From positions 2,356,001-2,420,000 of the forward strand of contig OX439050.1 in assembly GCA_949317995.1 (NCBI GenBank): DNA of 64,000 nt, written 5' to 3'. The stretch comes from Acholoe squamosa. Lineage: Eukaryota; Annelida; Polychaeta; Phyllodocida; Polynoidae. A model generated the notes under the pieces. It was given only the letters and a program-made list of their open reading frames with translations, was not told the origin of the DNA and did not search any database. Positions 1 to 46,300 of this stretch are shown here, one piece after another (the stretch's first letter is position 1; each line of letters starts with the position of its first letter). The translations under genes were made by a program, and so were the position numbers.

Positions 1-2
1 CC

Positions 3-1556
3 CAGGATAAGCATGGCCGAACTAGTAGAGTCCGGATAAGTGAGGTGCCCATAGTCCACAACCTGGACCCGGACTATACCCCTAGAGAGGCTTCCGATAG
101 TAGTGCGGAGACCAGTGGGTTCCACATTCATGTGGATCCTAGTAACGACCCGGGGCTGGGTGCTGGTAATGACAACACCCAACCGAATCCATCAAACGAT
201 GGCGGCCAGTCAACGGGAAATCAGCCATCCGACGGCGGTTACCAAGGCGCGCAAGGGGGGGGCGGTGCTTCGGGTGCCACAGGCTATAGTGGTACCTCGG
301 GTACCGGCCCCAACCAGGGTGGTGCGAGCTATACGAACCACAGTGGTACACAGTGGACGTATACACAACCTCCACCACCGCCTCCACCGGGCAATTCGAG
401 CTTCGGTGGTATAGGGGGCAATCGGACCTTGAATGAAACCAAGGCGATTGAATGGAGCAAACAGCAATGCACTAGATTGATGTATGCTCACAATTCTGCC
501 CGAAGGGTAGCCGTTATTCCTAGAGAATATGACGGTACTCGACCATGGAAAGAGTGGTTTGAAGATTTCATCGATGTGATGAATTGTAATGGATGGACCC
601 CATACGAGGCCAAGCCACATCTGGTGAGATGTCTGAAAGGCGGGCCGGGTCGCATGGCTGTAGAGCAATGGCGAACCTGGTACGGCCTCGTTGGGAGTTT
701 TGAGCAGTTAGTAGAAACTGCTAGTGGACTGTTATGCAACATGGTCAAGGAAGACCCGATGGTCCGTTTTAAGAAACGCACACAGAAGCCGAATGAAGCT
801 TTCAGAGCATACGGTATGGAACTCCATGCCCTGCTAAGTAAGGCCAGACCCGGTACTGAAAACCAGGACTGGTATATGGACGATTTGATCACTCAATTCG
901 TCAAGGGTCTAAGAGACCGAGATGAACAATTAGCAGCGAGGGATGCCTGGAAGGAGGGCATAACACTACACGGCATATTTAATGGTATAGATATGGCCGT
1001 GAAGAAGCGAGCTATGTTAGCTGGGGACATACCTAATGCCAGCGGCTTGGTACCCCTGGCATCGGTGACCCAGCAGTCGGAGGTCAATACTCCCTCAGAC
1101 GACTTCGAATTGATTGATATCGAACAGGAAGACGGCACCTTCTGTTCGATGCAATTAAGGAAGAATACTTCAGGTAGGAAGTATATTCCCAGGAAATCTT
1201 TTAATAAACAAAGGGACTCTAGACCTTCATCCGAGGTCAAGAGTGACCCGAAGGCTGTCGAGAAGGCGGTCAAGTCCACTGTAAGCACTGACAAAGTGAA
1301 GACTCAGTCCCCTCAGTCCCCGGACATGACCAAACTTCTGGAAGACATGTGTAAGAAAATTACAGATGCCATCCAAGCCAATCGGCAAAGACCCCGGGTG
1401 GATCGCCGAACGGTTAAGTGTTTCAGGTGCCAGCGCATGGGACACTACTCATCTGAATGTACCGCTACTAAGCCGGTAATGGCTGCCTTCTATGAAGCCG
1501 AAGACGACGGCGTAGAAAGGGAGAATGCTACGGATTCCACAGTTGTGGAAAACTAG
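3..1556 (+). CDS. gag: E1 Gag, C-terminal part (partial at 5' end)
   Basis: This is the structural protein that forms the retrotransposon particle. The frame is open from base 3 without an ATG before the capsid region, so the true start is upstream. Visible order: Gly/Ser/Asn/Gln-rich low complexity (about 70-390), a proline run, a capsid-like segment (about 500-1000) containing EYDGTRPWKEW, NCNGW and KKRTQKPNEAF, a basic linker, and one CCHC zinc knuckle CFRCQRMGHYSSEC (about 1419-1460) for RNA packaging. The E2 and E3 homologues show a coiled coil further upstream. The stop TAG is 1554-1556 inside GGAAAACTAG; pol lies in the -1 frame and is open across this point, so Pol is probably made by -1 frameshifting. 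Confidence 0.88.
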   Translation, partial: QDKHGRTSRVRISEVPIVHNLDPDYTPREASDSSAETSGFHIHVDPSNDPGLGAGNDNTQPNPSNDGGQSTGNQPSDGGYQGAQGGGGASGATGYSGTSGTGPNQGGASYTNHSGTQWTYTQPPPPPPPGNSSFGGIGGNRTLNETKAIEWSKQQCTRLMYAHNSARRVAVIPREYDGTRPWKEWFEDFIDVMNCNGWTPYEAKPHLVRCLKGGPGRMAVEQWRTWYGLVGSFEQLVETASGLLCNMVKEDPMVRFKKRTQKPNEAFRAYGMELHALLSKARPGTENQDWYMDDLITQFVKGLRDRDEQLAARDAWKEGITLHGIFNGIDMAVKKRAMLAGDIPNASGLVPLASVTQQSEVNTPSDDFELIDIEQEDGTFCSMQLRKNTSGRKYIPRKSFNKQRDSRPSSEVKSDPKAVEKAVKSTVSTDKVKTQSPQSPDMTKLLEDMCKKITDAIQANRQRPRVDRRTVKCFRCQRMGHYSSECTATKPVMAAFYEAEDDGVERENATDSTVVEN

Positions 1557-4500
1557 TGGGGGTTGTGTCAACGGCATCTGACATGGCCCCGAGTGGGAAC
1601 GAATGCCAAAATGCTACCGGGGGTATCCCGGTGGAAGATTTCGAGTCAATTACACCTGGAGGCCGGGTGGCTGAGGGTGCGCACCCCTGCACCTCGGCCG
1701 GGGCCAGGGACCCTAGTGTTGATATGTGCAGGAGCGATCATATGGAGGCGAGTGGCCGCACTAGGGGAGAGGAAGGATGGATCAAAGAGTTGATTCGAGT
1801 GTGTGGGACACGCCTTCCCCCAAGTCATCCGTGTCTGGAATTCCTGAGAGGACTCGGATTGAATCTTGGTGATTCGGGAGACTTTCACCAGTTTACCAGT
1901 AACCCCTCGCCTTTAGGGGGGAGACGGTGGTATGTACCCATATCTGTGGAAGGCCGGGTGGGGGAATTCTTGGTGGATACTGGAGCTAGTCATTCATGTG
2001 TGTCCAAAAGATTCTTCGATTCGGTGGCCGGCAGCCATGAGAACCTCAAAACGGGGGTAAATGCTTGTACGGCCGACGGAAGCAGTATGCGTACATTTGG
2101 TAGGACGTTTATGCCTATCCATATAGGAGGCAAAGAGTTTGTTCTTTCGCCAACTATAGCAGAGGTTAGTGATGACGGAATCCTCGGATTGGATTTTGCA
2201 AGCTTATACGGGGCCGTCTTGGACCCGAGGGACGGTACGATGGGTATACGGAGCCCGTATGGCTTGCATGTCCAATGCGTATTGAGACAGGTGTCTTCGG
2301 TCGCAGCAGTGGTACATACGGTGAAGATCCCACCGGGTACCACTTGCGATGTCCTTTGTGGCGGATCCATGGCTCAGAGGAATGAAACTGGAGTCTACGA
2401 ACCCGACACGGTGTATTTGTCAAGCATCGGGTTAGACTCAGTGGATACATTAGTGGCTAATGCAGCTTGGTCCGTATTACCCATAACTAACCGAAGTGGT
2501 TCAGTGGTTTATTTGAGGCGAGGCGACAGTGTTGGAAGGATGAGTTCGGTAGAACATGTCGCCGAGGCTAAATTTAACAAACCACTAAACCCAGTTAGTC
2601 AGCATCCTATGGATGAAGAATTCCAAAAGCTGATTGATCAGTCAGATTTAAAGAATACGGACGATAAGGATTGCCTAGCGAGACTTCTACAAAAGTACGA
2701 AGGTGCTTTTGGTAGGGAAGGAGGCCCGGTGGGTAGATCCGATAAGGTGTTGCACACCATAGATGTGGGCAGCGAGAAACCTTTTAAAATCCCGTATCGT
2801 AGACTTCCCCTTAAGAAGAAGTTAATCTGTGAAGAGCAAATACAAAAACAGTTGGACCTAGGGGTAATCGTGCCTAGCTCGAGTCCCTGGTCCAGCCCTG
2901 TTTGTATGACTACTAAGAAAGACGGTACAATCCGCTTTTGTGTCGACTACCGGAAATTGAACGGTATAACAAAGAAGAACTCGTATCCTTTACCAAGGAT
3001 AGACGAGACTTTAGATAGCTTGGGCGGAAACCAATGGTTCTGTACCTTGGATTTACAGTCCGGATATTGGCAAATACCAATGCACCCCAAAGACAAGGAG
3101 AAGACAGCATTCTCCAGTCATATGGGGCTGTTTGAGTATAATGTCCTACCCTTCGGATTGTGTAACGCCCCCGCTACATTCGAGGCTATGATGGAATCCT
3201 TACTGAGTGACCTTTTGTGGAAGAAATGCCTGGTTTACTTGGATGATGTGGTCGTGTTCGGCAAGTCATTCAAGGAATGCCTGGCGAATCTGCAATTAGT
3301 CCTCGACCGGATACTATCAAACGGTCTTAAACTTAAACCCAAGAAATGTAATTTGTTTAAGAAAACCATTACATACTTGGGAAGGATCATTACTCCTAAC
3401 GGGGTAAGTGCGGATCCGGAAAAATTAGAAGCTGTAGAAAATTGGGAAAGACCCACGAGTGCTAAGGAGGTGAGATCATTTTTAGGATTTTGTTCCTATT
3501 ATCGTGATTTCATACCGAATTACTCTCGTGTCAGCTTCCCCATGCAGTGCTTAGCTCACTGGACCCCGGGGAGGGCACGGGACCCATTCCCATGGACCAG
3601 CGAGCAAGAAGAGTCTTTTAATAAAATAAAAGATTTATTTAGGAATACACCCGTGTTGAAATATCCCACTCCCGAGGGACATTTCATCTTAGACACGGAT
3701 GCGAGCAATGATGCGATTGGGGCAGCTCTCTCTCAGGTCCAAGAGGGAGTCGAAGTGCCAATAGCATTTGCTAGCAACACGTTAAGCAAGACACAGCGAA
3801 ATTATTGTACCACCAAGCGAGAACTCCTCGCTGTGGTGGTGTATACGAAGAAGTTTAAGCATTTCCTTTGGGGAAGTGACTTTACTTTAAGAACAGACCA
3901 TTCGTCTCTTAGGTGGCTCCTTAACTTTAAGGATGCCGAGGGGATGATTGGACGTTGGTTAGCTCACCTATCCGAATTCGGATTAGAGCATAAACAAATA
4001 GAGCACCGACCCGGTGCTAAACACATCAATGCGGATGCCTTGTCAAGACGGCCTATCCGAAGGTGCCAAAATGCCACATGTGAAGACTGCGGGGCCCACA
4101 ATGCTGTGGTAGCCGGGCTGGTATTTAATTATACCACCCCCCGTATCCCCTGGGAGGAGGCTGTATGCAGCTATCTCGATTGGTCCCCAGAGACCATCAA
4201 GAAGTTTCAACAGTCAGACCCCACCACTGCGCGCATAATGGAATACCTACGGTCAGGCATTAAACCGGCAAGGCCTCTAGTTTCCCTGGAGGATAGGGAA
4301 GCGAGGCGGTTGCTGGCTCAATGGGCCGAGCTAGAGATCCGAGACAGCATACTATGTAGGTGGAAGACAACTCCCACCAACGGTAGGCTGTTGCAAATAG
4401 TGATACCCGCCCCGATGAGGAGGGATATCATGTATTATTGCCATGGCCACCAAACGAGTGGCCATTTCGGTAAGAGAAGGTCGATAGAGCGTCTACAAAG

Positions 4501-5791
4501 GCGTTACTACTGGCCCGGTATGAGAGGCGACCTGCTCCGGTGGATCGCCACTTGCCCGGATTGTTGTAAAAACTAACCGGGACCCGGCCTGGGTAAGCAA
4601 CCCTTATCACAGGAATTGTTTGGTGTCAGATTTGCTCGAGTAGCGATAGACATCATCAGTGGGATTAAGACGACGCCGCGAGACAATACTTGTATGATGG
4701 TCGTAACCGACTATTATACTAAGTACACTCGGGTGTTCCCCCTTCCCAACCACAAAGCCGCCACATGCGCGGAGGCATTTGTGAAAGGCTGGGTGCTGCA
4801 TTTGGGTGTTCCCCTTATGATGCACAGTGACCAGGGAAGGGAGTTCGAGTCAGAACTTTGGCAGGAAATGTGCCATTACCTAGCCATTTGTAAGACCCGA
4901 ACAAACCCGTACCGACCACAGTCGGATGGGCAGGTAGAGCGCTTCAATAGAACCCTCATACAAGTACTAAAGCCCCTGGTTAATACCCACCAGGATGACT
5001 GGGATGAACAGTGCGAGTTTGTAGTACATGCCTACAACAACACTGTCCATTCATCAACTAACTGCACCCCAAACATGCTAGTGTTCGGCGAGGACATCAT
5101 AATGCCCGCCGACTTAGTGTATGGAGTGGTTGGAATAGACCCGGAGGCGCCCTGCACGGTGCTGTTTGTAGAGTCATTAAGGGACCGGTTCAAACAGGCA
5201 TACGAGGCCGTTCGGAAAGAACTGCTGAAGAGTGCGAAGTGGCAGAAGGTGGGCTATGACACCAATGCTAAACGAATTCGTTTTAATGTTGGGGACAAAG
5301 TACTAAGGTACTACGAGCCGCTGGATAAGCTGAAGCTCGTAACGCCTTGGGAAGGTCCATTTAAAATCGTTCGTGTCATCTCCGAGTCCACGGTGATGAT
5401 AGAGGACTGCCTGACGGGTAGGAAATGGAAGACAAATGTCGGAAAACTTCGGCCCTGGAAGGGGCGCGAAGAGGCGGAGAGGGAGTTCGGCTACAAACCA
5501 CCTGTATCTGTCCCTAGCGGACCGAGCGTGGTAGTACCGAGGAAGCGCCCTAGAGGCCGGCCGAGAAAGACGCCGGGAGACGAGGTTATAGTAAAAAAGA
5601 AGACGAAGGCCAGGAAACGACCTAATCGTAAGAAATGGAAGAAAGTCTCGCTGAGTGAAGGCATTACGTATGGGAAGGGTCCCGCTCTGACTAAGCGAGA
5701 TCCAGAAAAGGCCGTACGTAAAGCGGGGAAAAATAAAATGCTAACCGAAGGCGTTAGACGCAGCCCCCGGTTGAGGTCTGCTGTAACCTAA
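1556..5791 (+). pseudogene. pol: E1 Pol (protease-RT-RNase H-integrase), one in-frame stop
   Basis: This is the polyprotein that processes Gag, copies the RNA and integrates the DNA. Order: aspartic protease with VDTGAS (about 1972), RT with the LDLQSGYWQ and YLDD boxes (YLDD near 3235), RNase H with LDTDASND (near 3688), integrase HHCC zinc domain with CPDCC (near 4555), integrase core with acidic residues in VTDYY, HSDQG and QVERF (about 4705, 4825, 4935), a WEGPF module (about 5350), and a basic tail with the AT-hook-like RPRGRPRK (about 5550). It ends in RRSPR...SAVT. The only break is TAA at 4574-4576, where E2 and E3 have Lys (AAA to TAA is a single change). It separates the zinc domain from the integrase core. 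Everything else is in one frame. Confidence 0.93.
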
Positions 5792-5902
5792 CTCAGTACA
5801 CAACGAGCTGCTGCGTGTTGTCCGCCATAGGCAGGCAACATACGTTCCACGGCCAGAGATGTCGAACGCGCCCTCCCCGGGTGGCTGTATCCCGTGAGTG
5901 GC

Positions 5903-5929
5903 GGTCGGATTAACCGGTACATTCGCTTT
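5903..5929 (+). promoter_or_regulatory. Conserved pol-ORF3 intergenic motif (E1 copy)
   Basis: The stretch GGTCGGATTAACCGGTA followed by CATTCGCTT matches the E2 and E3 intergenic motif (consensus GGWCGGATWAWCCRGT, then a short run ending GC). It lies 112 bp after the pol stop, compared with about 126 bp in E2 and 101 bp in E3. The function is unknown; a promoter, splice or RNA element for ORF3 is an inference from position and conservation. Confidence 0.55.
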
Positions 5930-6210
5930 GAAGCGTTGTATACACCGCTAAGCTCCAGACGATAGCACTCGGGTAGTAGGCCGCGTCTCACATGTCGAGT
6001 CGAATGTTGGTTCGGATCTAGTTCCCTAGGTGGCGCTGCTGGTGTGGCGGGAAAGCGCGGAACTAGGTCACCGGATAGCCATGGCGGGATCTCGCGAGAC
6101 GAGAGGTCTGACGTCATACTGGTCATAACTAGAGCGGACTCGTGGTGGTTAGACGCCACCCGTTTTTGCTCTAGTTATTTGTCGGCGGTTATACAGCCTG
6201 TAGCTGTCGT

Positions 6211-6238: not shown

Positions 6239-6270
6239 TGTTGGACGAATCCTTCGGGAGGAGTCCAACA
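6239..6270 (+). promoter_or_regulatory. Hairpin upstream of E1 ORF3, UUCG-type loop
   Basis: The outer stem TGTTGGAC/GTCCAACA (8 bp) encloses an inner TCC-TTCG-GGA, a classic stable C(UUCG)G tetraloop. It ends 38 bases before the ORF3 ATG. E2 and E3 have different hairpin sequences at comparable places, so the structure rather than the sequence appears to be kept. Its role is inferred only. Confidence 0.55.
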
Positions 6271-6308
6271 AAACTTGCCAATTAATTTTGGAAGTCGAAC
6301 CCGGTGCC

Positions 6309-9038
6309 ATGGCACAGGGAACGATTGACGCTGCGCGTCAAACAGCCAACATTCCGTTGGAACAAGACGAGGACCCGAAGGTCCCGTCTCGGGTCGAGGA
6401 ATCTATGGATTCTTCGACAGAGGAGGCCGCCCGGACGCTCTCGGCTATGGCCGAGGCAACCGACCGGGAGAGGATGCCACCTCCACCCCCGCCATGCCCG
6501 GAGCACCCGTCTACAACAGCCGCTTCGGGTAGCAAAGTGGATGTCCTGGACATTCCAATGTATCCTCCGGGATTCAGGACTCAGATCAGACGTCTAGCAC
6601 ACGTTGATCGCCAGGAAGGTATCGTGTATACCTCCTGGGGTACGTACATCCCTATGCACGCCTCCATGTTCGGATGCGGGCCCATGGCGGTGGAGCAGGG
6701 CGTGCCCGAGCCCATACCAGATGAACTTAAAACTATGGTAATGGACTCGTGTAGTGACGAGCTGGCTGACAACATGCCAGTTTCTTGGCTCCGCAACTAC
6801 CTAAAGTTGGCGGAGAATATGGCGACTAACGAGAATTTAGCTCGAGCCGTCTTGATCTCTGCGGGCATCATCCAGAAGGCCACGGAGTTAAGGGAGTCCG
6901 AATCCGACATGGATACAGACTCCACAGTAACCTTGTCGTCGGTGGAAACCGACCGGGTCAAGCGATTGACCCGTAAACCTGCGCCCAAGGGTCCTCTCAC
7001 TGAGAGCGATCTGGAGGCTGAGGATGTCCGCATCGCCGTCGAGAGGTCCACGACCGAGACCGACCCAGCTGCCGACATCCCGGAGGCACCTGGCGAGATC
7101 TCGGAAGAGGACATCTCGCGCCAGCAGGCTGCTGTAGAGGCAAAGCGAACCGAGCTTGCCAAGCAGCAGAAGGAGCTCACCGCAGCTCGCCGGGCCCATC
7201 GCAAGCAGCAGGCCCAACGGAAAGCTGAGATCTCTTCCGACTCTGACTCCCCGGTCAGCGGAAGGAGGAGCCCTCGGACAGGGGACAGGAGCCGACGCGA
7301 GTCGGATTCCAGTCCCGAAGTTCCGGCCCAACCGACTAAGGTTGTGCGCCGGAAGAAGAAGAATGGAGCGAAAGCGTCTCCGGCAGAGCCCACGCCCCCC
7401 ACCAAGCCGAGGGGTAAGGGCAAACCGAAGACGCCCGCTCCCACCACTACAACCACCACGGTAGCCACCTCGGTTACTGCATCTTCTGCAGCCAGCACGT
7501 CGGGTGCAAAGACGAAGTCCCCTACCAAGGCTCCGACTGGTACTACCACCTCCAGCCGAGCCAGCCGTAGGGGAGCTGACATATACACGGACAGCGAGGA
7601 AAGCGAAAGCGATCCAGAGCTGCCCGAGTCTGCCAAATCTGATTTGGAGTCCGTGACAACGTGGGAAGAAATGACCACGGATGTTCCCAAGGACGACAAT
7701 CAGAAGTGGATGTGGAAGAATGCAGCCGAGGGGTTCAAGGAACGGACTCCCCGCTGCTTCGCGGACTGTGCTTACGACACAGTCCATTATATGTGTCCGA
7801 GCGCCGTCAATAAGGACGGTGACAGCGATGACGAGGAGTGGATGAAGTCCGGCCCCTCGGATACGCCAGTAGGCAAGTTCTACCTGATTTGGATTGACCA
7901 GCTCAAGTCCAAATTAGGCTCGATCTACAGCTACGAGGCCCGGACGAAAGTCCAGTGGGCAATGACCCAATGGGGACCAACCGGCAACCGCCGAAGGTGC
8001 CCGTTTGAGTCTTGCCAGCTGTCTCTCACGGGTGAGAAGATGTTCGAGACGAAGCCCCGCTTCGCTCGACACATCGTCGAGTTTCATATGCATCACAAGC
8101 CTGTGATGATGTGTGTGCTCGGGGACCGCCCGAGTAAACATTGTGATGGCTCGTTCAGCACTCACCGGCGCCGAGACATGGCTCTGCATTTGCAGAAGGC
8201 CCATGGCATCGGCCTGGAGAAGACCAGGAAACGAGCCATCAAGTGCTTCAGCGAGCTCCTTGCTAATTGGTCCGCGCTGAGCATCAAGGAAGTGAAAGAG
8301 CAGGCATTCGAGACCGGATTCTGCTCGTGGAAGAGCGGCAACTTGCTGACTTACTTCCAGACGAACTCCTCGTCCACAAAATTCGGGATGCCCAGCGAGG
8401 TGCACCTGAAGGTGAAAAAGTGGCGAGGAGACGACAAGCGAGAGAAGGCCAAAGCCCGCTCTAAAGGTCCAAACGGAGGCACAGTCACGACTACTGCTTC
8501 CAAGAGGACCCGAGCAGACCGGTCCGTGAGCCCTTCGGGTGGCAAGGACCAGCCAAGACCAGCCAACCCAGCTGATCGTCGCGAGTCGGGACAACAGGTC
8601 TCGGCTCTAGAGATGCCTGGCAACCAGGCCCGCAGGTCGGGTAGCCAGGCGACCGCACCGGCGACTACAGCCACCTCCACACCTGCACCCGCGGAACAAC
8701 GCCCGGGCGAAGCCTCTGGCGGCCTGGATGATGGGGGCGAACTGTTCGCTCCCCCATCCGGGTATTCTACTTGGTGGGCTGGAGAGGGATCCTCCGGCAA
8801 GCGCCCCACGTACAGTGAGTACGCGGCGAAGTTCCCTTCAATGGGACCGGCTGGACCCGAGTCGCAGGTCCTTACCTCCTTGGGCCGGGCCAAAGCTCGT
8901 GGTAGGGGCCGCGGTGGGCTGGAGTCCACCCGAGGCTCCCCGGGTGGTGGCCGAGGCCGAGGAGGCATCACGGTGGAGGGCCCGTCTGCTCCTCCAACAG
9001 GCACCCCGCCTGTCTCAGTGGAGGCCCCAGCGGTATAA
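6309..9038 (+). CDS. E1 ORF3: zinc-finger accessory protein of a gypsy element
   Basis: I chose ATG 6309 because it sits in a strong Kozak context (GCCATGG); upstream in-frame codons are non-ATG. The protein is 909 residues. Order: a conserved helical segment (about 75-200, with MPVSWLRNY), a Gln/Lys/Arg coiled coil (270-305), an acidic/Ser-Arg region, a Thr/Ala-rich linker, a Cys cluster CFADC...CP (about 483-497), a C-x4-C...H-x4-H finger beginning CPFESC (about 564-592), a second finger C-x9-C...H-x4-H (about 601-632), a Lys-rich stretch, FPSMGPAGPESQ (about 841-852) and an RGG-rich tail. The fingers and the GPESQ motif are shared with E3. There is no signal peptide or membrane segment, so it is not an envelope. 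Nucleic-acid binding is inferred. It lies 517 bp after pol on the same strand. Confidence 0.85.
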   Translation: MAQGTIDAARQTANIPLEQDEDPKVPSRVEESMDSSTEEAARTLSAMAEATDRERMPPPPPPCPEHPSTTAASGSKVDVLDIPMYPPGFRTQIRRLAHVDRQEGIVYTSWGTYIPMHASMFGCGPMAVEQGVPEPIPDELKTMVMDSCSDELADNMPVSWLRNYLKLAENMATNENLARAVLISAGIIQKATELRESESDMDTDSTVTLSSVETDRVKRLTRKPAPKGPLTESDLEAEDVRIAVERSTTETDPAADIPEAPGEISEEDISRQQAAVEAKRTELAKQQKELTAARRAHRKQQAQRKAEISSDSDSPVSGRRSPRTGDRSRRESDSSPEVPAQPTKVVRRKKKNGAKASPAEPTPPTKPRGKGKPKTPAPTTTTTTVATSVTASSAASTSGAKTKSPTKAPTGTTTSSRASRRGADIYTDSEESESDPELPESAKSDLESVTTWEEMTTDVPKDDNQKWMWKNAAEGFKERTPRCFADCAYDTVHYMCPSAVNKDGDSDDEEWMKSGPSDTPVGKFYLIWIDQLKSKLGSIYSYEARTKVQWAMTQWGPTGNRRRCPFESCQLSLTGEKMFETKPRFARHIVEFHMHHKPVMMCVLGDRPSKHCDGSFSTHRRRDMALHLQKAHGIGLEKTRKRAIKCFSELLANWSALSIKEVKEQAFETGFCSWKSGNLLTYFQTNSSSTKFGMPSEVHLKVKKWRGDDKREKAKARSKGPNGGTVTTTASKRTRADRSVSPSGGKDQPRPANPADRRESGQQVSALEMPGNQARRSGSQATAPATTATSTPAPAEQRPGEASGGLDDGGELFAPPSGYSTWWAGEGSSGKRPTYSEYAAKFPSMGPAGPESQVLTSLGRAKARGRGRGGLESTRGSPGGGRGRGGITVEGPSAPPTGTPPVSVEAPAV

Positions 9039-15470: not shown

Positions 15471-15558
15471 TGTAATAGTTTGTCTCGTTAAGTTAGATTA
15501 AATCATAACGAAGATTTCTGACTGCGCTTACCCGAAAACCAACTGGTCACAGCACCAG
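15471..15558 (-). repeat. Partial LTR end plus leader, tandem with the E2 3' LTR
   Basis: 15471-15515 repeats the terminal 45 bp of the E2 LTR. 15516-15558 repeats the primer-site and leader sequence normally found only inside the element next to the 5' LTR (matching about 28784-28827). So on the element strand the order is full LTR, primer site and leader, then an LTR end. This is the signature of two elements sharing an LTR with the second nearly fully deleted. Confidence 0.85.
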
Positions 15559-15974
15559 TGTAATAGTTCGTCTCGTTAAGTTAGATTAAATCATAACGAA
15601 GAGAGAGAAAAGTTTCCGGGTAGGCAACCAAGCTTTTATTTCATAGCTTACGTTACATACGATCACAGCCTCAGAGGACTACATGCTACTAGGGCATTCG
15701 GTTACCCTTTCGGGTAACGACCTGGTTGAGCAGTGGGTCAAACCACTACTGAAGAACATGGGGGTAGAACCAGCCTTATATAGGGGAAAAGCCCACGAAA
15801 CTCAGACCGGCCACGTGACGTGTGGCGGACGAGTGGTAGGCCCCCTGGTGTAATGGATACGAACCCAGAGGCAGGTGCTGCCACCTGCCATCCGGACTCC
15901 CCCACTACACCCGAAGACCTAGGTCTGAGTCCCACGGGTACATGAACGTAAAGTGTAAACACCATACCCCTACA
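15559..15974 (-). repeat. E2 3' LTR (416 bp)
   Basis: Nearly identical to 28828-29242 with a handful of substitutions and small indels. On the element strand it begins TGTAGGGGTATGG and ends TATTACA. A TATA box (TATATAAGG) lies near 15776-15784, about 190 bp into the LTR. The start overlaps CTATATAAGG in U3, as in the other LTR. Confidence 0.93.
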
Positions 15975-17282: not shown

Positions 17283-20000
17283 TCACTGTTCCATGTTCTC
17301 CTCGGGTGGCTGGTTTGGACCCGGTTGTTGAGCCTGTGGCTGAACAAGAGAGTCCACACCAGCTCCATCCGTAGGTGCAGCCAATGCGGGGACAGCAGGT
17401 GTTAGTTTCACCTTCTGGCGTGCTTCGAACAGGCTCAAAGCATGCCCAGGTGTGCCGTCCCAGTTATCCATGATAACTCCAAAGACCTTGAAGAACTTTT
17501 GCTGGTTCTTCATGTTCGTTGCTCGTTCTAGGTCGAGCATCTGAGAAGCTGTTTCCTTCTCGGATAAGGCTTCCTGCCGCAGATTAGCAGCCTCCTGCTT
17601 ATCCTTGGCAATATCCGCCTTTATCTGAGTAGAGATCCGGTTGATCTCTGACTTCTGGATCGTGTCTATGCACTGGAGAGTGCTCGACACGGTCCGATGC
17701 TACATATCCAGATGGAGGTTTTCCAGATGATGCTGTAACGTCTCAAATTGCTTGCTCTGAATATTGCAAGACAATTTGTCCTCCTTCTTGAAGAAGGTCT
17801 CCACTGTCTGGATCACCTTAGGCCGATGAATCACAGCACCAGGTGGGGGTACCTGACCCTGAGGCTTCGGCTGTGCTCCAGACCCACTCGCAGTGACAGC
17901 TACACGTGTATGCGAAGAAGCAACCGCAGTAGTAGCCACACTAGCGGTGGTCGTAGGAGGGCCTTGATTTGGTAGTCCCTGAGCCAGGGGCAACTGCGAC
18001 AATTCTCTTCTAAGGTCTGTGACAGTCAACAATGGCGCGGGTGGACGTTGTCTCACCACAGCACTCATTGTTGGTCGTGGAGCTTGACCTCCTACTGTCG
18101 GCAGTTCCTGCTTGACCCTCCCGTACTGATCAAAGATTTGCATCTCTGGTCCGGGTGGGCCCATAGCAGGGTACTGCTTCGGGTCTTTGACATTCAAAGG
18201 CACGTGTTTCCGGGAGGACTGACCACCCGGTCCACTGACACCAAAGAATGTCGGGTTCTGTGCACCTTGTGGGGTTGGTGCTCGTCCATAATGGGAAGGA
18301 GTTCCAGTAGGAGACGGAAGATGTGGCTTCTTCCTTCCCCCATTCGTCTGTCTCTCCATATCTTCACGCCTCTCACAGGTGATCCGAGGGGGCAGTCTCC
18401 ATACGGATTTACTCCCCTTCAGGTGTCCCCTGTGTAGAGGAATGAAGTCAGCAAAGTTGCTATTGGCGTTTGCCCAGATAGCAGCCTCTTGCTCGTCAGT
18501 CGGAGTGGCGTCCACAACTGGGTCAACCGGCTCCTCTCCCTCCGGGTCGGATGGTACATCCACAGGTTGCACAACGGGTTGTTGACCCGCGAGAACCTGG
18601 GCTGCTGCATCTTGAGCGTCTCCACTCAAATCGGCCATTACGTCATGTAGCTTGACGATTGGCACACCGAGCTCAACTTTTACAGTTGGGACAGCCAGTT
18701 CAGCTTCTGGAGTTTCAGCTTGAACGTCTACCTCGATAGGTTCAGGTTTACGTTGGTTAACCTTCTTCTTATTCCGCCTGCGGGATCTGCCGTTAGTAGA
18801 AGTGCCGGGCTCGGATGCATCCGTCTCGTTGCCGGAGACATCCGAAGCCTTAGCTCCCTTCTTATTGGCCGAGCGTGGGGACACCCGACGGGTTCGGGTA
18901 CTGTCGGCCACACTCGTGCTAGTAGAGGGTTCGGTTCCTGACCGTTTCCCTTGGGGGTTCCTTTACCCTTTCCACCAGCTGCTTTCCCTACCACCTCAGT
19001 CTTCGTAGCGGTAGACTGAGCAGTTGTAGGGGAATCATCTGCACCAGTTGGAACCTTCTCAGGTACTACTGCTGCGTCTCCCAAGGTAGGAGTTACAGCA
19101 GGAGACATGAGACAGTCCATCCGATCGGCCATCTTGGCTGTTACCTGGACAGTAATCCACAACAGCGTTACCTGCTGCTTCATACTCATCTGCTGTACCT
19201 AACATTAGGATCTGGTCTCTATCTATGTATCTAGAGACCTCATCTGCCTTGACACCGGTGTAACCCGTTTTGTCAGACACATAGGAAGGCCTATAGGAGG
19301 TATTCCTTCGGAAAGCCATTTCTGCGTCCCAGACGGCTTTACGAAACCATAAGTGGATTACCAGTCCTTTGACCATCTGATGGTAATCCATCAGCCAGGC
19401 TTCCGGAAAGGTATAAGCCCATTGCGGATGAGCACATTCCCAGATTGCGTTGACAACACGCTCGTCAACCTCTCTGGGCGTCCCATAACAGGTGGGTATC
19501 AGCATTTCCTCAGAAATAGCTAACATCCGTCCGTCATAGGGACCGGCTACATCATGCCATTCTGGACTGTCTGGTAGGGGCAGCTCTAGGTACATTGGCC
19601 TGTCAACTGGAGAAGCAGGTCCCAAAGTACCGGACGAGGTACTCCCACCCAGACGAGGCGGCAATTGAGGGGGAGGTGGCATCAGAGCCCTGTCATGAGA
19701 CTGGACTCCTGCCGGCTCTCCACTCAAACCTTCGGATGGAGGGGCTACATAAGGCTCACCTACATCAATTCGTTGTTGAACACCTCGGCGTTCAGGACTA
19801 ACTTGTCTGGAGTTGTCGGATGTGTCATAGAACGATTCTACGTCGCTATCGTCTACTCCAGAGAAGTACTGATCAACATTCATTTGTTGATCCATCTGTT
19901 CACAATCAGCATCGTATTGCTGATCATCGTATGTATAAGTGGGACTCTTGGGAGAACCACTTCCATACTGATGGTCATTTCCTACTGCTGTAACGCAGCA
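17283..20000 (-). pseudogene. E2 ORF3 remnant (zinc fingers deleted, chimeric N-terminus)
   Basis: Homologous to E1/E3 ORF3. The N-terminal domain (about 19200-19570; YDGR, GTP, then FPEAWLMDY and WFRKAVWDAEMAF) aligns with E3 YDGR, GTP, MPPEWLRDW and GFRETVYAANRAF. The C-terminal YPAMGPPGPEMQ (about 18142-18177) matches FPSMGPAGPESQ of E1. The zinc-finger segment is gone: the sequence goes from AIWANANSNF straight to a Lys/Arg-Pro region. Two compensating frameshifts lie between about 19130 and 18915, and an in-frame TAG is at 17700-17702. Beyond it, 17283-17690 reads as a coiled-coil-like tail not seen in E1 ORF3. Upstream of 20000 the frame enters antisense recombinase sequence, so the native start is lost. 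Confidence 0.8.
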
Positions 20001-20009
20001 GTAGGAAAT
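19977..20009. other. 14-bp perfect inverted repeat at the ORF3/recombinase junction
   Basis: ATTTCCTACTGCTG-TAACG-CAGCAGTAGGAAAT: 14-bp arms, 5-base loop. One arm belongs to the edge of the recombinase fragment and the other to the ORF3 side. It marks the joint between them, probably a fold-back or template-switch joint. Confidence 0.7.
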
Positions 20010-20333
20010 TAACACGATTGGAAAGTTCATGAGTCGTATATCCGTTGATGCTAAATTAAGCAAGATCTACACAAACCACTGCATCCGTGCAACATGCATC
20101 ACCAAACTGAGGGACCAAGGGATTGCAGCAAAAGACATTAAATCGGTTACAGGACATCGGGCAGAATCATCAATTGATTTCTACTCAAAATGCCCCGATA
20201 GTCTGAACGAAAACATGTCACTTCGACTCGCAGGAGCTGTCACCAATGTCACACCAGGGAGACATGTCACTCAGGTGACAGCAGCGCAAGGTAGATCAGA
20301 TGATGCTACCCTCTCGCAGACAAATGTTGTCAA
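20001..20333 (+). pseudogene. Fragment of Crypton-like tyrosine recombinase (C-terminal part)
   Basis: Nearly identical to the 3' part of the recombinase exon at 22793-23763 but on the opposite strand. It retains the HxxR box (NHCIRATCITKL) and the GHRAESSIDFY box. It has 23 bp near 20261-20283 that are absent from the other copy and that shift the downstream frame. The fragment is embedded in E2 between ORF3 and its upstream hairpin, so it arrived by insertion or as filler at a break. Confidence 0.88.
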
Positions 20334-20423
20334 CTGATCAACCGGCACCACCGCCAAGGCAGACGGCCTCTTCTGCCATCGACAGAAGTGGCTGTTCGGG
20401 GATTTAAATATCCCAATCCACTG

Positions 20424-20447: not shown

Positions 20448-20763
20448 CAGTGAAAGGCGGGTGCCTTTTAACGAGGGCACACCTCGAAACACGGCTGTCA
20501 TGGGCTATCAAACTCCAACAAGAGTAAGACCACCCTCGGCCATGTCTTCTTCCTTCGCAGGAATAAGACAATATGGCGGGATACTCGAACTTGAAACGCT
20601 GCGCATGATCACACCGGCGCCCCACGTGACCATTTGAAAATGGGTCAACAACTTTCCCGCGTGCCCTTAATTAGGTCACGCGCCCTTACATAAAAACAAT
20701 ACAATACCCAATCGGTCGTCTGTCCGTACTCAGGGTTCAACCATGACAACTCGCTAGGTATTA

Positions 20764-20809
20764 TGGAGTTTATGGATAGCATAGGCATATCCACTGGATT
20801 ATCCGTCCA
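20764..20809 (-). promoter_or_regulatory. Conserved pol-ORF3 intergenic motif (E2 copy)
   Basis: 46 bp matching E3 43168-43213 at 40 of 46 positions without gaps, ending GGATTATCCGTCCA on the + strand. It is about 126 bp downstream of the E2 pol stop. This is much better conserved than the neighbouring ORF3 protein. E1 keeps the core. Confidence 0.75.
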
Positions 20810-20934
20810 AAACCATGGGTACATTGTCATAGGACCTTTTCCAGAAACTCATGACCGGCTCAAATATACATTGAACTAGGTTACAACATATAACACTACA
20901 CAGTACAGGACAACACACTCGTTGTGGTAACAGG

Positions 20935-26690: not shown

Positions 26691-28784
26691 ACAGAACACT
26701 TTGGCAGATTCCTTAGGTTTCTGCGTTCTTTTAGTGAACGTCAGCCAAGGATCTTCTCCAACTATATTCCCGTATAAATATGAAGCAATCTCTATGAGTT
26801 CATCATATTTCATATGAGCCGAGAGTCCTACAATTTGGGAATCTCTCCATTGTTCCACGGCTCCTTTCCCGTCGCCTTCCTTTAACCAGCATACTAGATA
26901 AGGGAGAGCTTCCGCTTTGCCCCATCCATTGCAGTTAAAGACATCCGCGCAGCCTTGATACTCCTCCTTCCAAGGATTCTTGGCATTAAAGGGGGTAGGT
27001 ATCTTAGCTACTCTACGAGCCGTATTCGTGGATCCAGTAAGGGTTAAACCCCTACTCCATTCCATGATCTCCGTATCGTCCAGACCTTGATTGTAACAAT
27101 CAACACCTAAGTTAGCAATCGCTGCATTAGAGTCATGCAGCACTTGTAACCCTGGAGAAAGAGATACTCGGCGACTGAGTCTCTTTTTCCTTGGAGGATT
27201 CGTACCATAAGTACCTCCAAAGCCTCCGGGTGGTGGTCCTCCTCCACCCCCTCATCCCCCTGTTCCGTATGGAGGCACCTGCGAGAAGGTGTATCCGCCG
27301 GTTTGAGGAGTTGGCCCTGGATTATTGGTGGATTGTGTGTTTCCACCAAAGCTAAAGGAACCACTATTGGAATTAGTGTTTCCTCCTGTTCCATGTGACT
27401 GATTTCCATCATTGAAACCAGTCCCACTGGCAGAGGGTCTGCTTCTGGAACCATCTCCTGAGGGTCCGGATCCTTGATCACATCCGGATTGCCCCCCAGC
27501 TGTACTAGAATTCCCGGATGTTCGTCCGGTTGTTCCTCCGGACATGTTCCGGGTGTTACTATTGGACGGATTTGTTCCTGATTGGGACTGTTTCCATCCA
27601 AACTGGGCATACGGGCCATTTGGTCCCCCTAAAGGTGACTGTTGTGGCCATCCGCCGTCAAAGGTGGAGGTTCTTGCTGAGTGGTTTTGTTTAGTTCCAC
27701 TCGCAGAGTCACCCCCACTATTTCCCGTACCTAAACCAAGAGGTTTCGAGGTATTATCCATGAATCTAACCTGATGGCTCTTTACTCCTTCGTAACGAGG
27801 TACAGTTGTCTCTGTTACCCCGTCATCGCCCCTCAAAGAGTTCATCTGGTTACTCGTCGTGTTTAGGGCAATTCCTGAAACAGTGAAGTCTGATTCAAGA
27901 GTGCCTGCTGCACGACCAGTATCTTCTAGATACTTTGACATCTGGATAGCTTTAGCTTCCAGTTCGGAATAATCATCCATCATTTTTGTTTGTTTGGCAG
28001 CCAAATCTGTGGATTCACGTATCCATTGACCTTTGAGTTTTTCATGCTCTTCGGTTTGTTTTTGATACGTTTTCCGTGCATCCTTGAAGGCTGATTCAAT
28101 TTTCATCAGCTCTTCTTGATACTTGCCATGGGCCGATTGAGTTGAATTTAACTCCTGTTTAGTTCTATTCAACTCATCACATGAGGCTCTGTATTCCAGA
28201 TCCGCCGTGTATAGTGCATCACGATACTGTTCATGCTGGAGTTGGAAATCTTGTTTTTCCTTCTCCATTTGATCCAATAACAATCGTTGTTGGCATCTAC
28301 AACTTTGATCGTAATCAAGACGTTCTGATATCAACTGTTTGTTTTCAGTCAGAATTTTGTCTCGAGTTCCGGTCAGTATAATAAGGTCCTTTTGGATCTT
28401 CTCGTATTCAGCTCTCATGTCTTCAAGCTCGTCCATTTTGTTCTTTTCGAATCCACATTTTTTATGTTTAATTCGAGAACTATATAGAGTTTCAAACATA
28501 CCTGCACTAGGTTTTGGTACCTCAAATGGCAGTTTACCAAATTGAGCAGTAGTTTTATGCATAGGTGCAGGTTTCAAAGTACCTCCTGGCATGAATAAGG
28601 AGTCCCCAAATTCATCCAGTTCATCATGTAAGTTTTTTCTTACATCCTCTAACCCATCAGGGTAGTGTTCCAGTGGATCTCTCCACTCCGTTCCTTGGGG
28701 TGGTGACTTGATTTCACCATCCTCCATCGGGGAGTTTAGCTCATGATTTGGGCCATTTCCCCTAACTGGGCTCAGCTCAGTCAT
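26643..28784 (-). pseudogene. gag: E2 Gag (full N-terminus, one stop, C-terminus deleted)
   Basis: Starts with ATG 28784, 42 bp from the LTR. Residues about 100-300 are a long coiled coil (EKIQKDLIILTGTRDKIL and following heptads). Next is a Gly/Ser/Asn-rich linker, then the capsid segment (CYNQGLDDTEIMEW, NPWKEEYQGCADVFNCNGW, KRTQKPKESAKVF). An in-frame TGA at 27252-27254 falls in the Gly run; the same frame continues after it. At about 26690 the capsid coding is fused to the middle of RT, removing the rest of Gag, the zinc knuckle, the protease and the start of RT (about 2.1 kb judging by E1). Confidence 0.88.
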
Positions 28785-28815
28785 TTCTGACTGCGCTTAC
28801 CCGAAAACCAACTGG

Positions 28816-28826
28816 TCACAGCACCA
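28816..28826 (-). promoter_or_regulatory. E2 primer-binding site (tRNA-His type)
   Basis: On the element strand TGGTGCTGTGA begins one base after the LTR. It equals the complement of a tRNA-His 3' end (TCACGGCACCA) with one change; E3 has the exact match TGGTGCCGTGA. Confidence 0.7.
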
Positions 28827-28827
28827 G

Positions 28828-29242
28828 TGTAATAGTTCGTCTCGTTAAGTTAGATTAAATCATAACGAAGAGAGAGAAAAGTTTCCGGGTAGGCAACCGA
28901 GCTTTTATTTCATAGCTTACGTTACATACGATCACAGCCTCAGAGGACTATATGCTACTAGGGCATTCGGTTACCCTTCCGTGTAACGACCTGGTTGAGC
29001 AGTGGGTCAAACCACTACTGAAGAACATGGGGGTAGAACCAGCCTTATATAGGGGAAAAGCCCGCAAAACTCAGACCGCCACATGACGTGTGGCGGATGA
29101 GTGGTAGGCCCCCTGGTGTAATGGATACGAACCCAGAGGCAGGTGCTGCCACCTGCCATCCGGACTCCCCCACTACACCCGAAGACCTAGGTCTGAGTCC
29201 CACGGGTACATGAACGTAAAGTGTAAACACCATACCCCTACA
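28828..29242 (-). repeat. E2 5' LTR (415 bp)
   Basis: Matches 15559-15974 along its whole length. TG...CA ends, TATA box TATATAAGG on the element strand near 29045. Flanked outside by ACAC (29243-29246), the target duplication. Confidence 0.93.
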
Positions 29243-38472: not shown

Positions 38473-40197
38473 GAAGCACTGTGGACCATAGCCCACCATC
38501 AGTCTTCATCCAGCTGCAGTCTGGAACACAAGTCTACAGGACCCCACTTGGGAATTAGCCAGCCCTCTTCTCCATTAAGGAGAGACTGCACTAGGATAAA
38601 GAACACACCTACTTCAAGGCACGAGAAAACTCAAAGGGAGAAAATGCAAGTATTAAATGATGCATTAATCATCATAGCAGCTAGAATGAATACAGTTCAA
38701 TCACTGCAAAGAACAAATGCAGCCCTGAGGATGCTATCATCAGGAATCCTGACCCCTGATATAGTACCACCCTCAGACCTTGCTAGATACTTAATTGACA
38801 TTAACAACAAACTTAGGATTACACGCCCTGGAGCACAAGTCGCAATTAATGACTTAGATTTCTATTATTCACAGAAGCTGACCTCATACACTTACTCAGC
38901 TCACCATATATATATTCATCTGGATATTATAATTCAATCTACTACCTCTACCTTCAAACTGTACCAAATGATTACATCACCCATGCCTATAGACACACAG
39001 GAGACCCCCACCAGAGGAGTCACCAGATTGCAAACCACAACTGAGTTTCTAGCAGTATCTTACAAAGAATCATTATTCATCGAATTGGACTCAGGTGATA
39101 TGCAGGCATGTGAAGGTACTACAGTAAAGGTATGCAGAGATGTAAATGGTAGAATTTATAAACACAGGCCTACATGCCCTGTAGCCATTTTCACTAACCA
39201 GGCTCAACAGATTAAGGAACATTGCAAGTTTACAGTTTCACCACTGCAAGCACCTACCACCCATGCTATTTCCATTTCTGAAGATGAGTATCTGGTCACT
39301 ACTAATGAACCCCATTACTTTATCAACTGCCATGGTAAAACGTCTGAAACTCGAAAAGCCCAGTCCTACTCAATCATAGGTGTACCCTGTGGGTGCACAA
39401 TCAGTGTAGGAGAATTTTCTCTTCCAAACACAAGGTTGCCCTGTAACTCAACCTTATCATTTCATTACATTCTCAAGACAATTAATTTACCATTCATGGC
39501 AGCACTTAACCAAATTTCTGAAACCAAACCAGATGAAAGAGAGAATCTTCCTAATTTCCCAGTAGTAAACCTTTCTAGAACCATAGACAAACTACAGGAA
39601 AATCCAATCATGGATGATATTACTCGACTAAATCTAGAGCCCTTTGCCAAAACATTATTAAAAGATGCCTCCAACCTTGATAAGGCATTGGAAACACGCT
39701 ACGTAGAATCACACCTACGTTGAGTTACAGAGCATCCAATCTTCCAAAGCTTAGGACTCATCCTAGGGATATCAGCTCACATTTTTATAGTATACATAAT
39801 ACTCAAACTGTACAGACTTGGAGGGACTGTAGCCTACCTGCCTACAGCCAAAGCATTTAGACTAGTCACCGAGCTCCCAGATAAGAATCCTACCAAAATT
39901 ACCCCTACAGAGGAAACCCACACCCCTTTCCTCACAATTCAGGAAACCCACACCCTGATAATTGCTATATTATTCACCCTGACCATCTACTCAGCCTACA
40001 GGATAATGAAGTACCTTAAGAAATTTGCACAGACACACTGTGGCAAGAAAAATGTGGCCAAGCGCACAAATCCCACAATATATTTTAAAATATATTGCGG
40101 AGACTCAAACTTCGCGCTACCCTTGAGGCCAATACCACATGAATTTGATGAGATTAAATCAGCAGCTGCCCCAACCTATAAGGATATAGTGGTGTAG
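38473..40197 (+). pseudogene. env: E4 envelope-like (F-type) glycoprotein remnant, one in-frame stop
   Basis: One frame from about 38473 to the TAG at 40195-40197, broken only by TGA at 39721-39723. The ectodomain has a helical segment (DALIIIAARMNTVQSLQ), a middle part with paired Cys, a VPCGCTIS/LPCNSTLSF Cys cluster, and N-glycosylation sites. Two hydrophobic segments (about 39745-39810 and 39955-40000) follow, the first a candidate membrane anchor, then a basic tail. This arrangement resembles envelope proteins of errantivirus-like gypsy elements. The N-terminus, including any signal peptide and cleavage site, is missing, probably lost in the deletion that also removed the integrase core. 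Not functional as it stands. Confidence 0.65.
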
Positions 40198-42902: not shown

Positions 42903-43167
42903 TGGAGGAGCAGCGAGGGGTTTGCTTAGCCAGTAAAATCCAAGAAGGGAGCGAGCTCGACCGTCTTAGACGTTACCGAAAAACAATATGGCGACAGGCC
43001 AGCATTCGTGACGTCATTTCCCCGCATCCCGCGAGGTCACGAGAGGTCAGCCGAGACTGGACACGGTGACGTCATGCGGAAACGCACGTGCTACAGGCGG
43101 TACATCAACAAACTGATTGTTTTTAGGTAATTATCGCTCACCCCGATGACTCGTCTGGATATTTAAG

Positions 43168-43213
43168 TGGAGATTATGGAAAGCTTAAGCAAATCCACCG
43201 GATTATCCGTCCA
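43168..43213 (-). promoter_or_regulatory. Conserved pol-ORF3 intergenic motif (E3 copy)
   Basis: 46 bp aligned without gaps to E2 20764-20809 (40 identical), ending GGATTATCCGTCCA on the + strand. It lies 101 bp after the pol stop. See the E1 and E2 entries. Confidence 0.75.
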
Positions 43214-43313
43214 CTACCCATTGGTACATCATGCGGCGGCGACAAATAAGTCTTTAGGGTCAGTTGTCATCCGTTCCTCTAAATGTAAACATTACACTCG
43301 TTGTGTATACAGG

Positions 43314-46300
43314 TTAGGTCACTGCAGTCCTCTGGGCAATTCGGGGGCTGCGGCGAACGTATCTCCCCTTCTCGGATAGTTCTTTATCGGACCTGACAGT
43401 CTGAAGAGCTTTCTCTAGGTGCTTCTTAGCCTTAGAAACACCTTTCCTCCTCTTTTTGTCTTCACCTGCCGAGACTTTTTTAACTCCCCCACGCTTAATC
43501 GGTGTTGGCGTGGGTGTCACTGATTCGGAACACTTCTTGGGTCTACCACGGCCGCGCTTCACTGTAGTGTTCTCTACCTGGTCTATTATGCGATTCTGGT
43601 TCAGGATCTTTCCGGAACCTTCACCATACATTTCTGTGGAGGTCTCCCTCCCAGACCATTTCCTTAATCTAGCCACATTTGACTTATAAAGTCGACCAAG
43701 GTCAGATTTAATAATTACGGTACAATCACTGATAACTTGTGTTATAGTAAAGGGACCGTCCCAATTAGACGCTAATTTTATGTGTCTAAGCGGTTCATGT
43801 AATCTGAGAACTCTGTCTCCGGATTGGAATTTCCGATGCTTTAGATCGGTATCGTATCCTACTTTCTGCCATTTGGCACTTTTCTCCAAATCAATTCGGA
43901 CAGACTCATATGCTTTTCTAAATCTGTCTCTTAAACATTCTACAAAAACTACATGGCAAGGTAGTTCAGGGTCCATCCCTACGACTCCAAAAACTAGGTC
44001 AGGCATTATCAAATCCTCTCCGAATACTAAAAGGTTCGGAGAACAATTTGTACTTGAATGTACCGTACTGTTATAAGCATGTGTCACGAAATGACATTGC
44101 TCATCCCAGTCATCCATATGTTCATTAACGAGTGACTTTAGGACTTGGATGAGGGTTCTATTGAACCTTTCCACCAATCCGTCGCTTTGTGGCCTATACG
44201 GGTTGGTTCTGGTCTTGCAAATAGCTAAGTATTCGCACATACCCTGCCAGAGATTTGATTCGAATTCTCTGCCTTGGTCACTGTGTAACATTAATGGTAC
44301 ACCGAAGCTTAGTACCCAACCTTTTACAAAAGCTTCGGCACAAGTAATTGCTTTGTGGTCCGGTAGTGGAAATACTTTAGTGTATTTTGTATAATAATCA
44401 CACACTACCATCATACATGTATTATCATTAGCGGTTGTATTAAATCCACTAATAATATCTACCCCGATTCTTGCGAATCTAACTCCGAAAAGTTCTTGGG
44501 ATAGGGGAAGTTTGCCCATCCCGGGTCCGGGTTTGTTTTTACAACAATCCGGACAGGTGGTTACCCATCTTTGCAAGTCCCGTGTCATGCCAGGCCAATA
44601 GTATTTCTTGGAAAGTCGTGCTAGCGAGCGTTTCCTTCCGAAATGACCACTGGTCCGATGCCCATGACAGAAGTACATAATGTCATGTCTCATAGCATGT
44701 GGTATCACCACTTGCATGATTCTCTCACCATTATTACATGGCTTCCAACGGTATAACACGCCTTTCCGGACTCCAAGCTCGGTCCATTGAGCAAGAAACC
44801 TTCTCATTTCTCGATTTTCCAGAGAGACCTCTGGTCTAACTGGACGTATACCCTTTGGTACTAATTGCAGTAGCTGCGCAGTTATTGAGTCAGCTTCCTG
44901 GAAATGTCGTATGTGATCCATAGACCAATCCAGTATACTGGCAACTAGGGGTACGAATGGTCTTCGAATCCCTGCTAACACTGCCCTATGAGCTCCACAA
45001 TCAGTACAATCCGGATTATCACATTTCCGGATTGGTATTCGAGACAAAGCATCAGCATTTAAATGCTTAACTCCGGGTCTATGCTGAATCTGTTGATGTT
45101 CAAGCCCATATTCGGATAAATGGGCTAGCCATCGGCCTAACATGCCTTCAGCATCTCGGAAGTTCAGTAGCCACCTTAAAGAGGAATGATCCGTACGTAA
45201 AGTAAAGTTCGTTCCCCATAGAAAATGTTTGAACTTCTTGGTATATACGACTACTGCTAACAACTCTCTTTTGGTTGTGCAGTAATTGCGCTGAGTCTTG
45301 CTCAGTGTGTTGCTGGCAAAGGCAATCGGTACTTCTCTCCCATTTTGGACTTGCGAGAGAGCTGCACCAATGCTATCATTACTAGCATCAGTATCCAGTA
45401 TGAAATGATCCGTTTCATTCGGATATTGCAATACGGGAGTACTCGTGAACAGGTCTTTTAGCTTTTGAAAAGCGGTTTCCTGTTCATGCGTCCAAGGAAA
45501 TTTTTCCTTGGTACTTCCTGGAGTCCAGTTAGCTATTGCTTGTAATGGGTAACTGACTCTAGAATAATTCGGAATAAATTCCCTGTAATAGGAACAGAAT
45601 CCTAAAAAGGACCTCACTTCCTTGGGTGTTTTAGGTCTATTCCAATTCGTAACTGATTCGATTTTTTCCGGATCAGCCTTTATTCCTTCATCACTGATGA
45701 TGCGGCCCAAATAATTTATGGACTTTCTAAACATGTGGCATTTCTTAGGTTTCAATTTGAGACCATTAGAAATAATACGTTCTAGTACCATTTTCAGGTT
45801 ATTAGAACACTCTTCGAATGTTTTTCCGAAGACTATGACATCGTCAAGATATACAAGACATCTTTTCCACAATAAATCACTTAGAATTGTTTCCATCATT
45901 GCTTCAAATGTTGCAGGTGCATTGCACAGTCCAAACGGCATTACATTATATTGGAATAATCCAATATGACTCAAAAATGCAGTTTTCTCCATATCTGAAG
46001 GGTTCATTCCCAATTGCCAGTAGCCTGATTGCAAGTCTAGGGTACAAAACCAGCTGTTTCCCCCTAAGGAGTCAATGGTTTCATCTATTCTCGGTAATGG
46101 ATACGAATTCTTTTTCGTTATTCCATTCAACTTCCTGTAGTCTATGCAGAAACGGATAGTACCGTCTTTCTTTGTTACCATACACACAGGACTACTCCAT
46201 GGACTATTGGAAGGGACTATTACATCCTGTTCCAACATCTTGTTTATTTCATCCTCAGCTACTCTCTTTTTTGCTAAAGGTAACCGTCTATACGGTATCT

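Follow-up and report, generated by a model that had tools for sequence, protein, structure and literature searches.

What does a Ty3/gypsy retrotransposon keep in the place of an envelope gene (env), if the gene found there does not encode an envelope? The question is raised by 64,000 nucleotides of the genome of the polynoid annelid Acholoe squamosa (GenBank assembly GCA_949317995.1, contig OX439050.1, positions 2,356,001 to 2,420,000; G000:C16:2356001-2420000), hereafter the window, in which three diverged elements, E1 on the plus strand and E2 and E3 on the minus strand, carry a third open reading frame (ORF3) downstream of pol. Env-position genes of long terminal repeat (LTR) elements are often assumed to be envelopes, and ORF3 is a conserved counter-case. 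Judged from its sequence, ORF3 is an accessory gene that a Ty3/gypsy lineage has retained for a long time. A conserved RNA segment that seems to fold lies beside it, and together they hint that the element has its own means of handling its RNA. Genome searches covered the 1.48-Gb assembly (63 contigs).

ORF3 is part of the element, as the initial annotation proposed, and has been kept across diverged families. The E2 gene lies inside an LTR pair of 98.0% identity, with a polypurine tract (PPT) preceding the 3' LTR; that part of the earlier description stands, but the gene is not the single open frame it was taken for. In the window its ATG lies at 20379, the frame is split by a 338-bp repeat and carries an in-frame stop, and approximately 754 bp containing both zinc fingers are missing, while both fingers are present in an intact E2 copy (L040). 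The E1 frame (6228-9038, ATG at 6309) and the E3 frame (40159-42822, ATG at 42804) are open and share the block order described for them, although damage is found in all three window copies, these two having been cut short. Other copies hold the full frames, of 1196 amino acids (aa) in E1, 991 aa in E3 and 1254 aa in E2, where frames of 1246–1259 aa occur in 38 of the 121 listed matches, and the start methionine is kept (MAQG in E1, MAEE in E3, MAEE in E2). The gag gene and 5' LTR of E1 extend beyond the left window edge; this LTR (L032 2078-2446) is 98.6% identical to the 3' LTR behind ORF3 in another E1 copy (L031). The partner of the E3 5' LTR is likewise the 3' LTR behind ORF3 in another E3 copy, so LTRs on both sides are seen through genome copies.

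At least 221 scored ORF3 matches in the genome, some of them not intact, fall into three families (at least 49 E1, at least 51 E3 and at least 121 E2). A pol end lies upstream of ORF3 in all 37 listed loci that were reached by ORF3 (30/30 E1, 6/6 E3 and L040 for E2), two of which are the window copies L001 (E1) and L033 (E3). Conversely, ORF3 lies downstream of pol in 3/3 loci reached by pol: L039 and L043, which are E1-type, and L042, which represents a fourth family (F4) found through a more distant pol query (P0030, 33 matches). Behind the one F4 pol that was read is an 817-aa frame, open at the edge of the sequence, which is homologous to the profile of the three-family ORF3 (hhalign probability 98, E=1.6e-13) and has FFRVFGVQLSEW at a comparable place. 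The apparent start of the F4 gene (L042 1490-2400) sits in a 182-aa frame overlapping the 817-aa frame, through frameshift, splice or damage. Since the copies are much alike and the loci are the best listed only, this linkage amounts to four families and not to 40 independent cases; within these bounds the expected co-occurrence was found, ORF3 adjoining pol at every locus examined in this genome. No sister element without ORF3 was found with pol query P0053 (34 matches), of which few were examined, F4 being the sole further family; at least 4 of the 34 lie approximately 590–650 bp upstream of E1 or E3 ORF3 matches, and the one that was read, L043, is an E1 subfamily carrying ORF3.

Selection was assessed among E1-type copies. 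Gap-free 1196-codon frames are present in 26 of the 30 E1 loci, with one stop in 3/26 and a mean nucleotide difference of 0.29%; copies and LTRs that differ so little suggest that the elements were active recently. The ratio of non-synonymous to synonymous change (dN/dS), a check called for at the outset, is 0.20–0.21 across ORF3 for copies L002, L039 and L043, being 0.05–0.09 in the finger region and 0.12–0.22 in the coiled coil; of these, L002 came from the ORF3 search and the other two from pol searches, so that L039–L043 is the only wholly unbiased pair. E1 ORF3 is therefore under purifying selection. The variant ratio in 26 E1 copies was 0.26, compared with 0.55 at the integrase end (25 of the same 26). 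Ranking the copies by ORF3 protein score biases the 0.26 downwards, and hence we rely on the three-copy comparison. Four of the 30 loci did not enter the variant ratio: L001, which is the truncated copy in the window, and L014, L022 and L027, which have gaps or rearrangements. We are confident that ORF3 is a genuine Ty3/gypsy gene, of its place in the env position and of this selection.

The product is predicted to be soluble and to comprise an N-terminal domain, two C2H2 fingers, linkers of low complexity and, towards the C-terminus, a coiled coil with FGxxxxxW. Blocks common to E1, E2 and E3 comprise the N-terminal domain (..WLR/M..), a W-NA-F-P stretch, the two fingers, GPExQ, the coiled coil (by eye) and FGxxxxxWDGxP, and the linkers of low complexity are long. 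All eight finger ligand positions are invariant across the three families, with unusual spacing, and a Cys cluster upstream of the fingers is present in E1 and E3 only, being absent from E2. The relationship between the E1 and E3 proteins is borne out by BLASTP across the finger region (E=4e-37), while E3 and E2 are homologous in the N-terminal domain (BLASTP 1e-9) and E1 and E2 at the C-terminal end (2e-4). Pfam contains no family matching the whole of E1 and E3 ORF3, and coiled-coil pieces gave only sub-threshold matches. With the curated C2H2 profile there was no Pfam match at E≤10 for the E1 and E3 fingers, in a search whose filters drop most weak matches.

An envelope protein with this finger and coiled-coil make-up is extremely improbable, and the initial annotation was right to say so: there are 2–3 N-glycosylation motifs, no strongly hydrophobic stretch, no signal or transmembrane segment by hydropathy scan and no Pfam match for the whole proteins. 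The highest 19-residue hydropathy means are low, at 0.67 in E3, 0.96 in E2 and 1.41 in E1, the last from an aligned row that contained gap signs. ORF3 might instead be a fragment of a host gene, captured once and carried as a passenger, and no relative was found outside these elements; but it occupies the same place in four diverged families and is under purifying selection in E1, which leaves this origin very improbable. The protein searches covered a pool of 5.8 billion proteins with two queries, E1 ORF3 and the E3 finger region. With the truncated E1 ORF3 as query, none of the 7,986 best candidates scored at E≤0.001, in a list that may have been crowded by low-complexity words; with the E3 finger region, none of 372 candidates reached E≤10. 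Viral contigs contained no relative of pol or the fingers, and the two PDB matches (best E 0.68) are not meaningful.

Between pol and ORF3 there is a second conserved feature. The block CACAACGAG is found in the pol–ORF3 gap of 4/4 families, at 19–21 bases from the start of the gap in E1, E3 and the window E2, and 129 bases past the pol stop in F4. Beyond it, a segment is predicted to fold alone as a three-way junction in E1, E3, E2 and F4. Stem P1 has 5/5 pairs in E1, E3, E2 (L040) and F4, and 4/5 in the damaged window E2; its sequence varies by family, and each of the five positions shows, at least once, a change of both partners. P3 has 5/5 pairs in every family, and in E1 both partners have changed at two of its positions. 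When the partner strand was shifted by up to 4 bases, fewer pairs formed in every case. An Rfam search over 4000-9500 at E≤1 returned a tRNA at 9341 as its sole match. The three-way junction is likely, though not proven, to be a real RNA element.

How might protein and RNA act? We tentatively propose that ORF3 is an RNA-handling accessory protein acting like CERV, a reading that is possible rather than probable and whose mechanism is drawn by analogy. CERV is encoded by the env-position gene of Cer1, a Ty3/gypsy element of C. elegans; according to the accessible part of its description, it is produced from a spliced mRNA, is nuclear, combines a Cys-rich region with what may be a leucine zipper, and is required for export of full-length RNA (PMC10309623). 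Translation of ORF3 would start at its own ATG, the RNA being either spliced or initiated internally, and the protein would multimerise via its coiled coil; fingers and linkers would bind the full-length RNA of the element at or near the structured pol–ORF3 region, and export or packaging of unspliced RNA would be promoted, as by CERV for Cer1. For ORF3 we infer that it is nuclear, that it binds RNA and that protein and RNA form a pair. RNA handling is favoured over DNA or chromatin binding and over a role in the particle because of the fingers, the likely multimerisation helix and the conserved RNA beside the gene. A bolder version, which we consider rather unlikely, is that this gypsy lineage has its own pair resembling Rev and the Rev response element (RRE), in which ORF3, made from a separate RNA, would multimerise on the junction RNA upstream of its own gene to bring about export or packaging of full-length RNA. 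If true, another animal group would have arrived at a solution like that of CERV, but through a different fold and with an identifiable RNA target. The locus makes it possible to test in a concrete instance how gypsy elements that lack Env may deal with their own RNA, and it is relevant to the origin of regulatory genes like those of complex retroviruses.

Several results weigh against an RNA-handling pair. The junction was found by eye, and its register in F4 was set by eye; a loose junction pattern occurred in 46–64 of 100 gap shuffles, and the same pattern missed F4. Single-sequence folds (approximately 110 nt) hardly beat shuffles (z -0.49, -1.96, -0.48). Alignment folding over the junction gave no significant window, 33–69 of 200 shuffles being as good, and for three local cuts over the junction 70, 170 and 147 of 500 shuffles were equally good, whereas the best window by alignment folding lay elsewhere (alignment A5 columns 381-500; gap 5780-6308), with 1/200 shuffles as good. 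As for the protein, basic runs were found in E1 and E2 and none in E3 by the same search, a looser search yielding KKGKK in E3; two structure models (AlphaFold, two rows each) were uninformative, with a mean pLDDT (predicted local distance difference test) of 36 and 42.

Other roles can be set against these observations. DNA-binding proteins commonly have C2H2 fingers and low-complexity tails, as ORF3 does, and it may be that the fingers act on the LTR or on host chromatin, raising transcription, guiding integration or countering silencing. A sub-threshold AT hook in the pol tail would suit such a factor, and so would the plant Retand elements, whose antisense ORFs encode a probably DNA-binding domain (PMC11963269, accessible part). 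Yet the finger spacing is irregular, the Pfam C2H2 model gave no match at E≤10 in a search that mostly filters weak ones, and the adjacent RNA element is left unexplained, and we consider DNA or chromatin binding to be a serious but unlikely alternative. An equally doubtful proposal concerns the RNA alone: it may serve only the translation or splicing of ORF3, as an internal entry site or splice control that ORF3 does not bind. It lies directly upstream of ORF3, which has its own ATG in E1, E3 and E2, and for an LTR element of a mussel, internal entry on an antisense RNA has been reported (PMC10974842, accessible part); this proposal is silent on what ORF3 does and fits all other readings. ORF3 would be a cytoplasmic component of the particle, acting with Gag as a second nucleocapsid or assembly cofactor, if its coiled coil, fingers, size and position were those of a structural protein, which they would suit, as would the strong constraint on the finger region (dN/dS 0.05–0.09). 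However, E1 Gag already has a CCHC knuckle, and coiled-coil-like N-terminal frames are present in the gag regions of E2 and E3 (by eye); a particle role is improbable. RNA handling remains the favoured, if tentative, function.

Accessory non-envelope genes in the env position are already known from nematodes, bdelloid rotifers and plants, and the suggestion that no lineage with such a gene had been described holds in part only: non-envelope genes in this position have been described, but no precedent was found for the protein family or the RNA element. Both are undescribed as far as we searched in literature and databases; the literature search, of partial coverage, without Repbase and no proof of absence, found no gypsy lineage with a C2H2 ORF3. 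The following comparisons draw on the accessible parts of the cited papers. Cer1 CERV resembles ORF3 in its env position in a gypsy element, in having no obvious homology outside its group and in not being an envelope (PMC10309623). It differs in being 517 aa long, with exons 1–3 in the reading frame of gag and a C4-type Cys region (PMC10309623), whereas ORF3, compared by description, has its own ATG, two C2H2 fingers, 991–1254 aa and an adjacent conserved RNA. LTR elements of bdelloid rotifers likewise keep non-envelope ORF3s downstream of pol, but these are GDSL esterases, DEDDy exonucleases and coiled-coil or transmembrane proteins, and the word 'zinc' occurs 0 times in the main text as accessible (PMC5408684). 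Additional ORFs in plants (e.g. Retand TRP28) are also conserved between pol and the 3' LTR, those of Retand being probably DNA binding, but they are antisense, belong to plants and encode another domain (PMC7264820, PMC11963269). The sORF2 of the Drosophila MDG1 group is similarly an accessory protein in Env-less elements, although a short, fusogen-like transmembrane one (PMC11952523). HIV Rev/RRE, where a viral protein brings about export by acting on a structured RNA of the genome that encodes it (PMC4142337), is like our proposal as a working model only; no homology is claimed, and binding by ORF3 is putative.

The elements themselves are of ordinary Ty3/gypsy (Metaviridae) type. Pfam finds the pol order protease, reverse transcriptase (RT), RNase H and integrase (PR-RT-RH-IN) in E3, and E1 and E2, the two inspected for LTR features, have TG..CA ends, a primer binding site (PBS) and a PPT. 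The LTR of E1 has ends TGTAGGGG..ATTACA and PPT AGTGGGGGTGG, and the LTR ends of E2 are identical; the PBS, CTGGTGC..TGACCAGTTGG, is common to E1 and E2 and is one that we take to resemble a tRNA-His primer site. E1-type pol frames elsewhere in the genome are 1415–1419 aa long (34 matches, one of which, L039, is tied to E1 through its ORF3). A chromovirus was rejected, no chromodomain being found in E3 pol by Pfam at E≤1. Troyka elements, defined by CG..CG termini and 3-bp target site duplications in the accessible part of PMC12440569, are ruled out by the TG..CA termini of E1 and E2. Among pol relatives on ENA contigs, 24 were aligned, and 19 of these are 59–69% identical to E3 pol; the pol end RRSPR..AVT is seen in E3 and E1 and also in these relatives. 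Sub-threshold AT hooks lie in the C-terminal tails of pol in E3 (43533-43559, minus strand) and E1 (5543-5578, plus strand) (Pfam). Coordinates are collected in the table.

Table. Positions in the window of the ORF3-bearing elements and of their predicted RNA features
Feature	Position	Strand	Remark
E1 gag	1..1556	+	Frame open at left edge; CCHC knuckle (Pfam)
E1 pol	1556..5791	+	In-frame stop 4574-4576; integrase core by Pfam
E1 CACAACGAG block	5799..5807	+	Just past E1 pol stop; in all four families
E1 three-way-junction RNA (predicted)	5901..5948	+	P1 5/5, P3 5/5 pairs
E1 ORF3	6309..9038	+	Truncated after about codon 935; frame of 1196 aa in other copies
E1 ORF3, two C2H2 fingers	7998..8204	+	C592 C597 H616 H621; C630 C640 H655 H660 of the 1196-aa frame
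E1 ORF3, GPESQ motif	8853..8867	+	GPExQ in E1, E2, E3
E2 3' LTR	15514..15974	-	Repeat takes in some PBS-like sequence
E2 ORF3	17283..20379	-	Disrupted by an insertion (19996-20333), loss of the finger region at about 18356 and an in-frame stop
E2 three-way-junction RNA (predicted)	20763..20810	-	P1 4/5 in window copy, 5/5 in L040
E2 CACAACGAG block	20918..20926	-	Family comparison
E2 5' LTR and PBS region	28783..29242	-	Pairs with 15514-15974
E3 ORF3	40159..42804	-	Truncated near codon 875; full frame 991 aa
E3 ORF3, two C2H2 fingers	41059..41271	-	Ligand alignment
E3 three-way-junction RNA (predicted)	43167..43214	-	P1 5/5, P3 5/5 pairs
E3 CACAACGAG block	43297..43305	-	Family comparison
E3 pol (PR-RT-RH-IN)	43314..47396	-	Pfam
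E3 5' LTR	50311..50687	-	98.7% identical to 3' LTR of another E3 copy (L041)

The surroundings of the three elements are rich in other repeats. A tRNA-Cys gene (9341-9412) stands by the cut end of E1 and is followed by a long 31-bp satellite (9441-12670), which also flanks the E1 5' LTR (L032 1-2077); E1 seems to have been inserted into the satellite array and its right side cut short. The 3' LTR end of E2 (15470-15600) contains a second, partial LTR end together with PBS-like sequence, as unequal LTR recombination might leave behind. A tyrosine-recombinase-like frame (22793-23854; Crypton-like, by eye) is inserted in E2 pol, and part of it recurs at 19996-20333 within E2 ORF3. Another gypsy-like element (31811-39723, plus strand) has protease, RT-RNase H and integrase-like frames, and its last ORF (38548-39723) is envelope-like by eye, unlike ORF3. 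A DIRS-like element (52082-56569, plus strand) has a gag-like ORF, an RT-RNase H ORF and a tyrosine-recombinase-like ORF (by eye). Finally, a direct repeat (29870-31060 and 56644-57998), 93–98% identical, encloses E3 and two other elements.
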